A DNA stretch of 64,000 nt, taken from Williamsia limnetica. Its GTDB lineage: Bacteria; Actinomycetota; Actinomycetes; Mycobacteriales; Mycobacteriaceae. The stretch lies in the NCBI RefSeq assembly GCF_003217475.1, contig NZ_QJSP01000012.1, positions 62,001-126,000 on the forward strand. The letters run 5' to 3'. Shown piece after piece: positions 40,005 to 63,151 of this stretch. Every line of letters begins with the position of its first letter. Position 1 is the stretch's first letter. Below the pieces are notes generated by a model. The model had not been told where the DNA came from. It ran no database searches and saw only the letters and a program-made list of their open reading frames with translations. Made by a program: the position numbers and the translations under genes.

Positions 40005-40232
40005 GTGGATGACATCGTGGTGACCGTCAAGCCGAACAGTCGCAAAGGGCCGCTGGTCGAGGTTGCCGGCGACGGCGCTCTGACGATTTTCGTGCGTGAA
40101 CCAGCCACCGAGGGCAAGGCCAATGCCGCCGTTGCGCTCCTGCTCGCGAGGCATTTCGGCGTGTCCAAGTCCCGCGTCGTCCTCACCGGTGGTGCGACCG
40201 CTCGCACGAAAAGGTTTCGTATCGACCGATAG
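40005..40232 (+). CDS. DUF167 / YggU family protein
   Basis: A 75-aa protein covering the whole DUF167 fold: VVTVKPNSRKGPLVEV, LTIFVREPATEGKANAAVALLLARHFGV and VLTGGATARTKRFRI. The function of the family is unknown. The GTG at 40005 is chosen for its -10 and because the upstream frame runs through the 21-bp repeats. A perfect 9-bp hairpin (40218-40240) covers the stop codon and separates it from the retron-like locus. Confidence 0.85.
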   Translation: MDDIVVTVKPNSRKGPLVEVAGDGALTIFVREPATEGKANAAVALLLARHFGVSKSRVVLTGGATARTKRFRIDR

Positions 40233-40240
40233 TCGATACG
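40218..40240. terminator. Hairpin over the DUF167 stop codon
   Basis: CGTATCGAC (40218-40226) and GTCGATACG (40232-40240) pair perfectly around a 5-nt loop. No T run follows. It overlaps the -10 proposed for the retron-like RNA (40237-40242). Confidence 0.55.
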
Positions 40241-40248
40241 ATGGCACG

Positions 40249-40408
40249 TGTGCGCGGTGGGGAGGTGAGAGTGGGTTCTTCGAACCCGTCTCAGGGGCAA
40301 CCCCTGGGTACATCTCACAGTTGGTATCAGCGTCCGACGCCGCTCGGCATGCTCCGCGTGCTATCCGGCGCCGCCGACACAGGTTCATGGTCACCTCCTC
40401 GCCGCGCA
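40249..40408 (+). ncRNA. Retron-like msr-msd RNA
   Basis: Segment a1 GCGCGGTGGGGAGGTGA (40252-40268) pairs along all 17 positions (two G.U) with a2 at 40391-40407; U40251-A40408 extends it. Directly after a1 come two small hairpins with 3-nt loops: GGGTTC-TTC-GAACCC (40273-40287) and CAGGGG-CAA-CCCCTG (40292-40306), the msr-like part. A longer imperfect hairpin (40332-40378), with stems CGCCG/CGGCG and GCATGC/GCGTGC around TCC, is the msd-like part. G40269 or G40271 are candidates for the branching G. A -10 TACGAT (40237-40242) would start transcription right at a1. The RT gene follows 25 nt after a2. Confidence 0.75.
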
Positions 40409-40433: not shown

Positions 40434-41711
40434 GTGACCGACAGCTACTCGTTGGGCGGTCTGGGACCACGTCTGCGCCTGACCGCGGAGTCTGTCGAAC
40501 ACCTGATGACGAGGCTCGAGGTCGATCCGCGCTGGACGGTCTCCGCACTGGTCGACATGCTCGTGGCGACGATGGAACAGACCGTGGTCACCGAATTGCT
40601 CGGCGTGCTGCTCGACCGGTTTCCCGAGCGGCCCACCGATCTGGCCGCTGTCCGCACCTTCCTCACGCCGCTGATAGGCGCGCCGCGCCGGCGCGCGTTC
40701 GAGGATCCGGACGAGCCGATCATGCGGTTCGAGCTGCCGCAGCTCCGGGACTATTCGGACGTGGCCCGCTGGCTCAACCTCACTGTCGGCGAACTGGAGT
40801 GGTTTGCTGATCGTGGTCACTGGTTGCGGACGAAGGACGGTCCGCTGCAGCATTACCGTTACTGGCAGGTGCCCAAACGCGATGGCGTGCGGATGATCGA
40901 GGCGCCCAAACCCCACCTGAGAGAGATTCAGCGACGGCTGCTGAGCACCATCGTCGACCACATCCCGCCACACCGGGCTGCGCAGGGTTTTGTGCCGGGC
41001 ACCTCGACCTCGAGTTTCGCCTGGCCGCACACCGATCGTCCGGTGGTGGTCCGAATCGATTTGCGCGACTGCTTTTCCTCGATCGGAATTGCCAGGGTCA
41101 GGGCCATTTTCGCGGCGGTGGGCTACCAGAGAACTGCGCGGGTCCTGGCAGAACTGTGCACCACCACCACGCCCATCACCCACCTCCGGGACGTACACCA
41201 CCGGCAAGCGGCACTCCTGCGGCAGCGGCATCTCCCGCAGGGTGCGCCGACGTCCCCGGCGTTGGCAAACCTCGTCATGCGTGCCATGGACCGCCGGATC
41301 TGGGGATACGCCCGACGAAACAGCCTGCATTACAGCCGGTATGGCGATGATCTGGGGATTTCCGGCGACAACATGAACCCAGAAGCAGTGTTGTGGGTGG
41401 TGCAGCGCATCATTGCCGACGAAGGTTTCACCGTGCACCCGGACAAGACCAAGATCATGCGGGCGCATCAGCGCCAGCAACTGGCGGGGCTGGTGGTCAA
41501 CGACCAACCGAGTATCGCCCGACGTGACTACGACAATCTCCGAGCATTGCTGCACAATGCGATTCGTACGGGCGCGCAGGCGCAGAACCGATCGGCGCAC
41601 CCGAATTTCCGGGCGCACGTGCGGGGCAAGATCGCCTGGATCGGGGCAACCAGTACGCAGCGACGGAACATCTTGCTGGCGTTGGCCGAGCAGGTGGACT
41701 GGGACCGCTGA
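40434..41711 (+). CDS. Retron-like reverse transcriptase
   Basis: A 425-aa reverse transcriptase. Motif order: QVPKRDGVRMIEAPKPHLREIQRRLL; QGFVPGTSTSS; VVRIDLRDCFSSI with Asp209; LPQGAPTSPALANL; and the catalytic YGDD at 303-306. The retron-specific positions are present but altered: the NAxxH motif reads FAWPH (195-199) and VTG reads LAG (350-352) in LAGLVVNDQPSIARRDYDNLR. An N-terminal extension of about 105 residues precedes the usual LxWFAD helix. The GTG at 40434 overlaps the TGA of a short frame (from ATG 40387) that spans a2, so translation may be coupled. Group II intron maturase domains are absent. Confidence 0.9.
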   Translation: MTDSYSLGGLGPRLRLTAESVEHLMTRLEVDPRWTVSALVDMLVATMEQTVVTELLGVLLDRFPERPTDLAAVRTFLTPLIGAPRRRAFEDPDEPIMRFELPQLRDYSDVARWLNLTVGELEWFADRGHWLRTKDGPLQHYRYWQVPKRDGVRMIEAPKPHLREIQRRLLSTIVDHIPPHRAAQGFVPGTSTSSFAWPHTDRPVVVRIDLRDCFSSIGIARVRAIFAAVGYQRTARVLAELCTTTTPITHLRDVHHRQAALLRQRHLPQGAPTSPALANLVMRAMDRRIWGYARRNSLHYSRYGDDLGISGDNMNPEAVLWVVQRIIADEGFTVHPDKTKIMRAHQRQQLAGLVVNDQPSIARRDYDNLRALLHNAIRTGAQAQNRSAHPNFRAHVRGKIAWIGATSTQRRNILLALAEQVDWDR

Positions 41712-41770: not shown

Positions 41771-42190
41771 ATGAGCCTGAGCAATTATTCGAGCAATCTC
41801 GATCGCAATACGCCCGGGGCCGCGGACCCCAACGAGACCAAACGGAGTCTCGACGCCCAACTCGAGCATGTACTCGGACTCGAGGACGGTTGGCAGGGGC
41901 CCGACTCATTGGCCCCGACCCCTGCTGCGCGGGAGTTCTTCGAGAAGTACTTCGACGGCTTGCAGAGTTCGTACTGGACCGAATCAACTCCCACAGCGAC
42001 GCCGGCGGGCGGCTTGCACATGGAATGGAGTCGCGACGGCAGCGACTATTCCGCAGACATCCTCGCAGGCGGTCAGTTGCTGCTCAAAGTGGTTGCCCCG
42101 ACCGCGACCGACAATGCCGAACTGCACATCGAGGAACCGACCACCGCGATGTTGCGCAAGTTCATCATGCGTGGACTACCGATCGATTGA
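41771..42190 (+). CDS. Unrecognised small protein next to the reverse transcriptase
   Basis: A 139-aa acidic, soluble protein. The N-terminal half has LDAQLEHVLGLEDGWQGPDSLAPTPAAREFFEKYFDGL, the second half is beta-rich (GGLHMEWSRDGSDYSADILAGGQLLLKVV). The LEDGWxG...AP.P and GGLHMEW blocks look like conserved sites, but I do not recognise an enzymatic or toxin fold, and it has no membrane segment. It follows the RT gene by 59 bases, before a backbone gene on the opposite strand, so it is the only candidate partner or effector of the retron-like locus. Confidence 0.75.
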   Translation: MSLSNYSSNLDRNTPGAADPNETKRSLDAQLEHVLGLEDGWQGPDSLAPTPAAREFFEKYFDGLQSSYWTESTPTATPAGGLHMEWSRDGSDYSADILAGGQLLLKVVAPTATDNAELHIEEPTTAMLRKFIMRGLPID

Positions 42191-50921: not shown

Positions 50922-50952
50922 CCAATTGAAATTGGGTCCGACCAGCGGACCC
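50922..50952 (-). promoter_or_regulatory. Alternative hairpins between the SAM riboswitch and metY
   Basis: GGGTCCG (50934-50940) pairs with CGGACCC (50946-50952); CCAATT (50922-50927) pairs with AATTGG (50930-50935). The two stems share 50934-50935, so they exclude each other and could form the expression switch below the aptamer. Confidence 0.55.
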
Positions 50953-50953
50953 G

Positions 50954-51058
50954 CGCTTGCTGCGGCGAACCGCAACCAGGTCATCACCCGGAGCACCCCA
51001 CCGCGGTTGGAGGGTTGCCGGTCAGCGAGCCGGGGCTTGTTGCTGACGCTCATGACCT
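50954..51058 (-). promoter_or_regulatory. SAM-IV riboswitch upstream of metYX
   Basis: Read on the minus strand the RNA starts GGTCATGAGCGTCAGC and continues AACAAGCCCCGGCTCGCTGACC, GGCAACCCTCC, then GATGACC. P1 is GGTCAT (51057-51052) with ATGACC (50984-50979). P2 is GTCAGC with GCTGAC. These are the SAM-I/SAM-IV core elements. The extra GCGG-TTCG-CCGC hairpin on the 3' side of P1 fits SAM-IV, which is typical of actinomycetes. TATATC about 14 nt upstream is a likely -10. Confidence 0.85.
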
Positions 51059-61456: not shown

Positions 61457-63151
61457 TCAGTCGTCCACCGAGGCGAGCACCCGATAGATGCGCCACGTCG
61501 GCTGGTCCTCGCCGGCGTTGGGGACCTCGAGCGCGAGTGACGCTATGTCGGCGCCGGTCTCGTACAGCGTCGGATAGCGGAGATTGAGTGCGTCAGATTC
61601 TCCACGCCCGGTGTTCGGAACCGAGAGCAGATACTGCACGTTGCCGGCAGCGGGGTCGTTCAAGATGGTGGTGAAGTCCAGATCGGACGGGACGACGAAA
61701 GTCTTGGGCTTCGACGACGCGACCACGACGGCAAATCCGTACACGGTGTCGGTCAAAACCGATCCCTCGGGTAGGTCGAGACCGTCGAGGTATTCGGCGA
61801 TCTCGCGTTCGGTCGAGAAGGTCGCCGCGATCCGGTGTTCGGTCGCCTTGAGGGCGGTGACATTGTCCGGTTCCGGTGCCAGCACCGCCCCGAGGGCGTA
61901 TTCCTGCGGAGCGTAGTGCGGTTTGCTCATACCCCACGCCGAACTCGGCACGGTGACGGCGAGCAACAGAGCAGCGGCCACGAGCGCAGGCCACTTCGGG
62001 GCGCGACTGATGCGGTGCCGGGGTGCCGGATGCCGCGATGGCGAGAGTGACTGGTCGGGAGCGTATTTCCCGCGGCGCTTGGTGATCGTGCACGCACGGG
62101 CCGGCAGGAGCAGGACGGCCACCGTTGCGGCCATCGGTACGGCAAGGATGTAGAAGCGCAGGAAACCGAAGGTCGAGCCGCTGGCGTAGCTGTAGGCCTG
62201 AAAGGCGAGCACCGCGCCGAAGATCAGTACCGGGACAGCCAGTGGGATCCAGTCGCGGCGCCACCATCCCGCGACCGCCGCGATCAGCACCAGCGGGATC
62301 AAGGTCGGCGCCAGTAGCACGGTCGAGACGAAGGAGAATTCGAGGCCGGGGAGGAACTGATCGGGGGTGTCGGCCCCCGACTGCCGCATGATCGAGGAGT
62401 TTCCGTACTGGGAGCTGAACTGGGCGAACGCCTGTCCCGTGATGAGCCAGCTGGTGGCAGCCCACCCGAGGAACGCGAAGAACCCGGGAAGGGCGACTAA
62501 TCCACCGTCGAGCAGGGCCCGGCGCCAGCGCAGATGCTTGGCGCTGCGGAATGCGGTGATCGACGCCACGAGTATCGCGGCCGTCGCGATGGCGGCGACC
62601 GCGTCGTATCGGGTCAGGTAGCCAAGTCCCAGAGCGACTCCCGCCGCAGCGAGATGGTGTACGTCGTCATCGGTTGCCCAGGCGATCAGTCGGCGAACGG
62701 CCCAGCATGTGAAGAACACGAAAGGGGCTTCACTCATCCCATTGGAACCATAGAAAACGATCATCGGATTGAAGGCGAACAGCGCCGTGATCACCAGGGT
62801 GAACGATCGGGGCAGTCCGCGGTCTGCACCGATACCGAGTACCTGCACCGCTGCGCCCGCCATGAAGAGCGAGGACATGATCACGCCGGAGTACGCGAGT
62901 TCGGTCATGGGTTGCCAGAGCTCGCTGAACCCGATCGTCGGTAGTTGGACGAGCGCGGTCAGGGGCGTGAAGATGAAACCGATTGCCGCGACGTGCGGAT
63001 CGCGACTGAACAGGACTGTCTGCGCTGACGAAACCCGCGACAGCGAGTCGCCGATGATGAAGCCGTGGTGGACGCACAGGTAGTATCCGACGGCCAGATA
63101 CACCGCGGCCGCGATGACGTAGACGAGCGTGCTGAGGCGTCTGCTAAGCAT
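61457..63151 (-). CDS. Polytopic GT-C-like membrane glycosyltransferase
   Basis: A 564-aa protein with about ten to twelve membrane helices and a C-terminal soluble domain of about 140 residues. The first outer loop HHGFIIGDSLSRVSSAQTVL has the acidic residue expected of GT-C enzymes that use polyprenyl-phosphate sugars, and LGLGYLTRYDAVAA is similar to mannosyltransferases of the PMT/ArnT group. The ATG at 63151 overlaps the end of the GT2 gene by 8 bases, so the two are coupled. The specific sugar is unknown. Confidence 0.78.
   Translation of the reverse strand: MLSRRLSTLVYVIAAAVYLAVGYYLCVHHGFIIGDSLSRVSSAQTVLFSRDPHVAAIGFIFTPLTALVQLPTIGFSELWQPMTELAYSGVIMSSLFMAGAAVQVLGIGADRGLPRSFTLVITALFAFNPMIVFYGSNGMSEAPFVFFTCWAVRRLIAWATDDDVHHLAAAGVALGLGYLTRYDAVAAIATAAILVASITAFRSAKHLRWRRALLDGGLVALPGFFAFLGWAATSWLITGQAFAQFSSQYGNSSIMRQSGADTPDQFLPGLEFSFVSTVLLAPTLIPLVLIAAVAGWWRRDWIPLAVPVLIFGAVLAFQAYSYASGSTFGFLRFYILAVPMAATVAVLLLPARACTITKRRGKYAPDQSLSPSRHPAPRHRISRAPKWPALVAAALLLAVTVPSSAWGMSKPHYAPQEYALGAVLAPEPDNVTALKATEHRIAATFSTEREIAEYLDGLDLPEGSVLTDTVYGFAVVVASSKPKTFVVPSDLDFTTILNDPAAGNVQYLLSVPNTGRGESDALNLRYPTLYETGADIASLALEVPNAGEDQPTWRIYRVLASVDD

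Follow-up and report, generated by a model that had tools for sequence, protein, structure and literature searches.

A covarying RNA and its reverse transcriptase as a probable two-part retron of Williamsia and related Mycobacteriales

The DNA analyzed here, referred to as the window, is the 64,000-nt stretch of the Williamsia limnetica contig NZ_QJSP01000012.1 at positions 62,001 to 126,000. It contains, in this order, a 5' stem arm (a1), two hairpins with 3-nt loops, an imperfect hairpin, a 3' stem arm (a2) and an ORF for a reverse transcriptase (RT), with a gap of 25 nt between the end of a2 and the presumed RT start codon. The features of the locus are the following:

40237-40242, plus strand: TACGAT, a promoter element of the -10-like kind about 12 nt 5' of a1; conserved across loci as [CT]AnnnT.
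40251-40268, plus strand: a1, 5' arm of the closing stem; from the fold, with double changes in 7/7 outer-helix and 3/4 inner-helix pairs, and 90.3% paired in further sequences.
40269, plus strand: candidate branching guanosine and 2'-OH primer site, the first unpaired base 3' of a1; G in 111/111 sequences, its role being proposed from known retrons.
40273-40287, plus strand: msr hairpin 1, loop TTC at 40279-40281; from the fold, with compensatory changes in the nine-sequence alignment A1, and 84.0% paired in further sequences.
40288-40311, plus strand: msr hairpin 2, GNRA-type loop GCAA at 40297-40300; every cell of 8 core pairs paired in the alignment A2, loop GNAA in 105/111.
40331-40372, plus strand: msd core, with conserved CGTC at 40331-40334, a hairpin at 40338-40370 and the tip heptamer GCTCCGC at 40351-40357; loop TNC in 110/111, GCTNCGC in 97/111, 8/10 pairs with double changes.
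40391-40408, plus strand: a2, 3' arm of the closing stem; from the fold and covariation, with G40390, T40391 and C40392 invariant at its junction.
40434-41711, plus strand: retron RT, 425 aa from a presumed GTG start, YGDD at residues 303-306; matched by PADLOC RT_other and RT_outgroup, RVT_1 and Foldseek.

Direct reading of the sequence shows a1 (40252-40268) and a2 (40391-40407) base-paired along 17 positions, two of which are wobbles (T40258-G40401 and G40260-T40399); the RNA fold adds the closing pair 40251/40408. The fold of the 160 nt from 40249 to 40408 has an energy of -85.6 kcal/mol (z = -4.95), a stability equaled by 0/200 dinucleotide shuffles. A preliminary description, made from the sequence, had drawn the same stem, the two short hairpins with loops TTC and CAA after a1, an imperfect hairpin before a2 and the TACGAT box, and had recognized in their succession upstream of an RT the order typical of retrons. 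Each of these elements is found where it was placed; the loop of the second hairpin can be read equally well as CAA (40298-40300) or as the tetraloop GCAA, the GNAA form of its cap being an RNA tetraloop type. The same description had assigned the DNA to a mycolic-acid actinomycete, which agrees with the placement of Williamsia in the Nocardiaceae, Mycobacteriales, in the NCBI taxonomy. Searches against Rfam recovered no match for the retron RNA in the window. The sole Rfam gathering match in the window is a SAM-IV riboswitch on the minus strand at 50948-51057 (110 bits).

The conservation of this RNA was studied with a model, R1, built from nine upstream sequences, with a consensus of 52 pairs, 13 of which show compensatory changes. 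R1 gave full-length matches of 36 to 180 bits in 62/62 sources; these contain the nine building loci and three repeats and represent 59 distinct places. One of the loci, L036 (NZ_JNYV01000003.1), is of the Williamsia type in a record titled Kitasatospora arboriphila, which is probably mislabelled. For the alignment A2 the 62 sources were reduced to 53 by dropping three repeats, five near copies and the lowest-scoring sequence, L026. In A2 95.6% of the cells are paired, versus 78.2% in shuffles; the covariation score is 0.434, versus 0.130 in shuffles and reached by 0/500 of them; and double changes occur in 21/29 pairs, a count again equaled by 0/500 shuffles. The covariation signal is lost when the partner is slid by one to three columns. 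A further 57 distinct sequences tell the same story, with double-change types in 15/18 pairs of a1/a2 and with 92.1% and 92.0% of the cells paired in msr hairpin 2 and msd, respectively. The a1/a2 stem, for which the preliminary description had proposed a covariance analysis across homologous RT loci, thus shows compensatory changes in both of its helices. The competing stem GTGAGA/TCTCAC, which had been put forward as an alternative fold overlapping a1, fared differently: 58.3% of its cells are paired, versus 56.3% in shuffles (11/500 as high), and its covariation score is matched by 133/500 shuffles. Its covariation is at the level of chance, and it is therefore unsupported as a conserved fold.

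The occurrence of the RNA closely tracks that of the RT. Among previously unused loci R1 matched in 59/60, the only miss being G326, in which the RT match is N-terminally truncated. Of 401 genomes of the same family, which we take to be the Mycobacteriaceae of GTDB, 121 have an RT match (E <= 0.001) and 113 have the RNA, one copy each. All 113 fall among the 121, and the RNA occurs in 0/280 RT-free genomes. In 112/113 it precedes the RT match by no more than 500 nt, just 5' of the gene, the exception again being G326 with a weak match 10 kb off. Seven of the eight RT genomes without the RNA have distant RT matches alone (best E 1.2e-21 or worse) and the eighth (G018) has a split RT. Similarly, in 101 relatives the 28 genomes with the RNA are all inside the 40 with an RT match; six of the 12 RT genomes missed by R1 (G063, G070, G078, G090, G097 and G098) became positive once the locus was searched alone. 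Beyond the family R1 weakens, matching 20/33 sources at E <= 0.01 (some of which are one locus taken twice), and its misses there include distant RTs, along with L101/L130 (G634), whose RT is 43% identical. Covariation thus establishes the predicted RNA structure, and its partnership with the RT is fixed. No description of this RNA was found in the part of the literature consulted.

The RT is a member of the retron clade. Its ORF matches the domain RVT_1, and among PADLOC profiles the best scores are those of RT_other (PDLC02949, 563 bits) and RT_outgroup (PDLC03740, 533 bits, covering profile positions 7-407 of 407), which place it in the same RT clade, followed by RT_XIII at 316 bits. Weaker matches were obtained with profiles for DRT2, DRT3a and group II RTs. 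In Foldseek searches with a structure model (pLDDT 83.5) ranks 1-18 are all chains of retron entries, the best being 7v9x_A of Retron-Eco1 (E 1.4e-21, about 26% identity over the match). The motifs of regions X and Y were examined in the alignment A3, which holds 40 of 55 proteins, the window's included; those left out include L004, L013 and L023, which are short, and L050, which has no intact frame. Of the NAxxH motif of region X the H is present in 40/40 and the N in 0/40, the commonest form being FAWPH (13/40), and the VTG of region Y is LAG in 26, LTG in 6, VTG in 4 and other forms in 4 of 40. Known retrons, too, are described as varying at the N of NAxxH or at VTG in two papers (PMC6868368, PMC4244168). 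Conservation is unevenly distributed along the protein: identity of 37 homologues to the window's RT averages 18% over residues 1-100 versus 56% over the core (136-425). The fast-evolving N-terminal region forms four helices in the structure model (residues 18-80). Modelled alone with AlphaFold2 it reached a pLDDT of 56, too low for a fold search, and profile searches, including PADLOC, matched no separate domain in it.

The positions expected to matter for DNA synthesis were compared in a set of 111 sequences, from which seven distant out-of-family sequences (L024-L030) and two identical ones were removed and to which two sequences from plasmid records were added. Two guanosines, G40269 and G40271, had been suggested as the branch point; the first is invariant, and the second is G in 99/111. 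C40331 and C40334 are as invariant as the three bases at the a2 junction. The middle base of the TNC at the msd tip may be C, G, T or A, and the complement of the tip heptamer GCTNCGC is d(GCGNAGC), a mini-hairpin for which, as far as is known, any middle base works. For the DNA mini-hairpin d(GCGAAGC), extraordinary thermal stability and resistance to nucleases have been described (PMC10527192). The folding energy of the msd DNA copy is no better than that of shuffles (z = 0.55 and -0.17), the energy model showing no unusual stability.

A further indication comes from the kinds of mismatches tolerated in each stem. When RNA is copied into DNA, a G-U pair gives rise to a C-A mismatch, and an A-C mismatch gives rise to a G-T wobble. 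The ratio of G-U to A-C cells in the RNA-only stems is 122:40 in a1/a2, 45:6 in msr hairpin 1 and 97:0 in msr hairpin 2, and it is 11:20 in msd over 11 consensus pairs, a count that leaves out the pair 40346-40362. The bias varies with the choice of msd pairs: over 12 pairs, with this non-consensus pair included, the msd ratio is 37:31 versus 122:40 in a1/a2 (P = 0.003). With one count per genus, pair and type, and the pair dropped, it is 5:11 versus 55:27 (Fisher P = 0.011, not tree-corrected). This mismatch bias is suggestive of selection on the DNA copy of msd, the counts being ones that ignore relatedness.

Upstream of a1 a -10-like element is conserved among the relatives. The pattern [CT]AnnnT, starting -15 to -9 from a1, is present in 53/58 loci, against an average of 5.3 and a highest count of 13 in control windows, and before a1 in 58/59 more loci, where the controls averaged 4.6 and reached at most 10. 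The longer form TGGCAnnnT, which is an extended -10 with C replacing the usual first T, occurs upstream of a1 in 31/58 and 46/59 loci (77/117), versus at most 1 in controls. A -35 consensus was not found, 49/53 loci matching TTGACA at three or fewer of its six positions. At the other end of the RNA, 56/58 loci with an RT frame have a candidate start codon for the RT no more than 60 nt past the end of a2. Apart from these elements, the window has a perfect 10-bp inverted repeat with a 5-nt spacer at 40217-40241, overlapping the -10 element, which may be an operator or an upstream terminator. L003 and L004 share this repeat; L002, with an RT 89% identical, lacks it. An unrelated perfect inverted repeat of 18 bp precedes a1 in L015, and in L005 and L008, at about 1075-1224, a 19-20-base motif around CCGTCGACCGTGCCGAAAC repeats at a spacing of about 21 bp upstream of the retron.

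An associated effector gene beside the RT was not found in 41 loci and 111 neighbour ORFs. In the 41 loci no ORF family near the RT, except the RT itself (whole or broken), is common to more than three other genera. The 111 neighbour ORFs, from 39 loci, were chosen crudely as the longest or most conserved frame, 6/117 picked ORFs being left out. In Pfam searches of these the commonest family was SpoU (the trmL of a shared site), recovered 5 times at E <= 1e-5, and in PADLOC searches one family had 2 matches at E <= 1e-10. The shared site is one where dnaE2 and trmL closely flank the retron in 4/40 loci (genus codes g1, g16 and g18). In two g9 loci the retron adjoins trmL and the dnaE2 matches are 2.5-5 kb upstream of it; one g15 locus has part of dnaE2 on the opposite strand, 4.6 kb upstream. 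A functional tie to this SOS polymerase was considered and set aside, the association being a shared site and not a rule across the 40 loci. Overall, the retron copies occupy many different genomic sites.

With respect to inheritance, the RT tree has 19 genus-label changes against a minimum of 17, and descent is therefore mostly vertical within genera. Myxobacterial retrons are likewise thought to be vertically inherited, according to a review (PMC6868368). Besides this mostly vertical descent the sequences point to changes of site and some transfer. A Dietzia plasmid carries one copy, which R1 scores at 154 bits. Another, L139 (NZ_LR134447.1; 101 bits), is on the Tsukamurella 'plasmid 5'; polA and rpsA lie close to the retron there, and this replicon is probably a chromosomal piece. 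RTs 45% identical are encoded on three Burkholderia replicons, and on that of Burkholderia pyrrocinia (L140, 4500-4697) the RT is preceded by a fold that shares the layout and includes a GGGGCUACCCC hairpin; its stability is modest (z = -1.80, 8/200 shuffles as stable) and R1 scores only 17 bits. In IMG/VR the exact msr pattern had 0 matches; 220 RT relatives were recovered, of which 80 were kept, each at most 38% identical. Distant RTs are present in 12 phage records. The above review (PMC6868368) notes putative actinobacterial retrons; in the accessible portion of a Rhodococcus ruber genome report that it cites (PMC6498646), a gene is only labelled as a retron-type polymerase.

Taken together, these observations support the retron identity of the locus as secure, short of msDNA. 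The locus is very probably a two-part retron consisting of the RNA and the RT, driven by its own promoter, with a predicted G40269-primed msDNA and no adjacent partner gene. By analogy with known retrons, the dedicated promoter would start the RNA at a1, which would pair with a2 to close the RNA, and the RT would bind the msr hairpins and prime from the 2'-OH of G40269. It would then copy msd from the a2 junction, around G40390, toward msr. The predicted product is an RNA-linked single-stranded DNA with a GNA-capped hairpin at its tip. That the RNA and the RT form a working retron is supported, if only indirectly, by the covariation, the promoter conservation and the msd mismatch bias. Weighing against the reading are the ordinary folding energy of the msd DNA copy, the departures from NAxxH and VTG, the dependence of the mismatch bias on the pairs counted and the fading of R1 beyond the family.

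The best surviving rival is a selfish or decaying element that makes msDNA from which nothing is selected for and the host derives no benefit. This would fit the patchy presence of the RNA (113/401), the many different sites, the lack of an effector and the two-piece RT matches in G018, G055, G056, G269, G291 and G308, which might be assembly errors. The purifying selection on the RNA stems, the promoter and msd speaks against it, as does the mostly genus-wise RT tree, and we regard it as unlikely. A second rival, in which the RNA would serve an RT of another kind (group II-like, DGR or DRT) as a cis-regulatory leader or guide and no msDNA would be made, would draw on the position of the RNA directly upstream of the RT in a presumed common transcript and on the weaker DRT2, DRT3a and group II matches. 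It is very improbable: the RT matches retrons far better in both profile and structure, the closing stem, the invariant G that follows it and the hairpin of msd agree with a retron, and the window has no Rfam intron match.

As for a tripartite retron, the adjacent gene considered as its effector encodes 139 aa at 41771-42190, 59 nt downstream of the RT, and has a weak match to PADLOC PDC-M32A (E about 1e-5). In a Williamsia genome with neither an RT nor an RNA match (G004) its homologue is directly adjacent to a DUF167 gene; the inserted or lost unit is therefore the RNA with the RT. The gene is evidently a Williamsia host gene adjoining the retron site. Despite its closeness to the RT, this retron-free site and its occurrence beside the RT in 0/39 loci examined in other genera lead to its rejection as the effector and largely refute the tripartite reading, which we consider highly improbable.

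For the two-part retron the role that we favour, with some reserve, is guarding against phages. Since no third component is encoded alongside, it would be either the fast-evolving N-terminal helical region of the RT or a host protein encoded elsewhere in the genome. A more specific proposal is tentative and, as a whole, possible but doubtful: a retron without a neighbouring effector, in which the fast-evolving N-terminal helical region of the RT would itself act as sensor or effector. What is selected for would be a DNA hairpin, GNA-capped and resistant to nucleases, under purifying selection on the DNA strand. Such a retron would be expressed from a TGG-CAnnnT promoter typical of the family, of whose sampled species 28% (113/401) have it.

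Retrons are known mainly as anti-phage units of RNA, RT and effector. Retron-Eco1 (Ec86), the source of the nearest structure match, has the same RNA layout as the Williamsia retron; the 7v9x structure shows Ec86 with its effector, whereas the Williamsia locus has no adjacent effector, and the window's RT has about 100 extra N-terminal residues relative to Ec86. PADLOC type XIII, the next-best profile, presumably relates to the myxobacterial retron Mx162, and RTs of the Mx162 type have long N-termini and, to our knowledge, no known effector. The RT clade itself is already catalogued in PADLOC as RT_outgroup/RT_other. These profiles cover the protein alone; the RNA, the promoter-like element and the absence of a partner gene come from the present analysis.

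Thus, in conclusion, the untyped RT_outgroup clade gains a defined RNA, a candidate branch point and a promoter. In this family the RNA, promoter and msd appear to be under selection at varied sites without a recurring companion gene, and it therefore isolates the question of what role retron DNA may have without a toxin. The RT could also provide a native DNA-producing enzyme for GC-rich actinomycetes.
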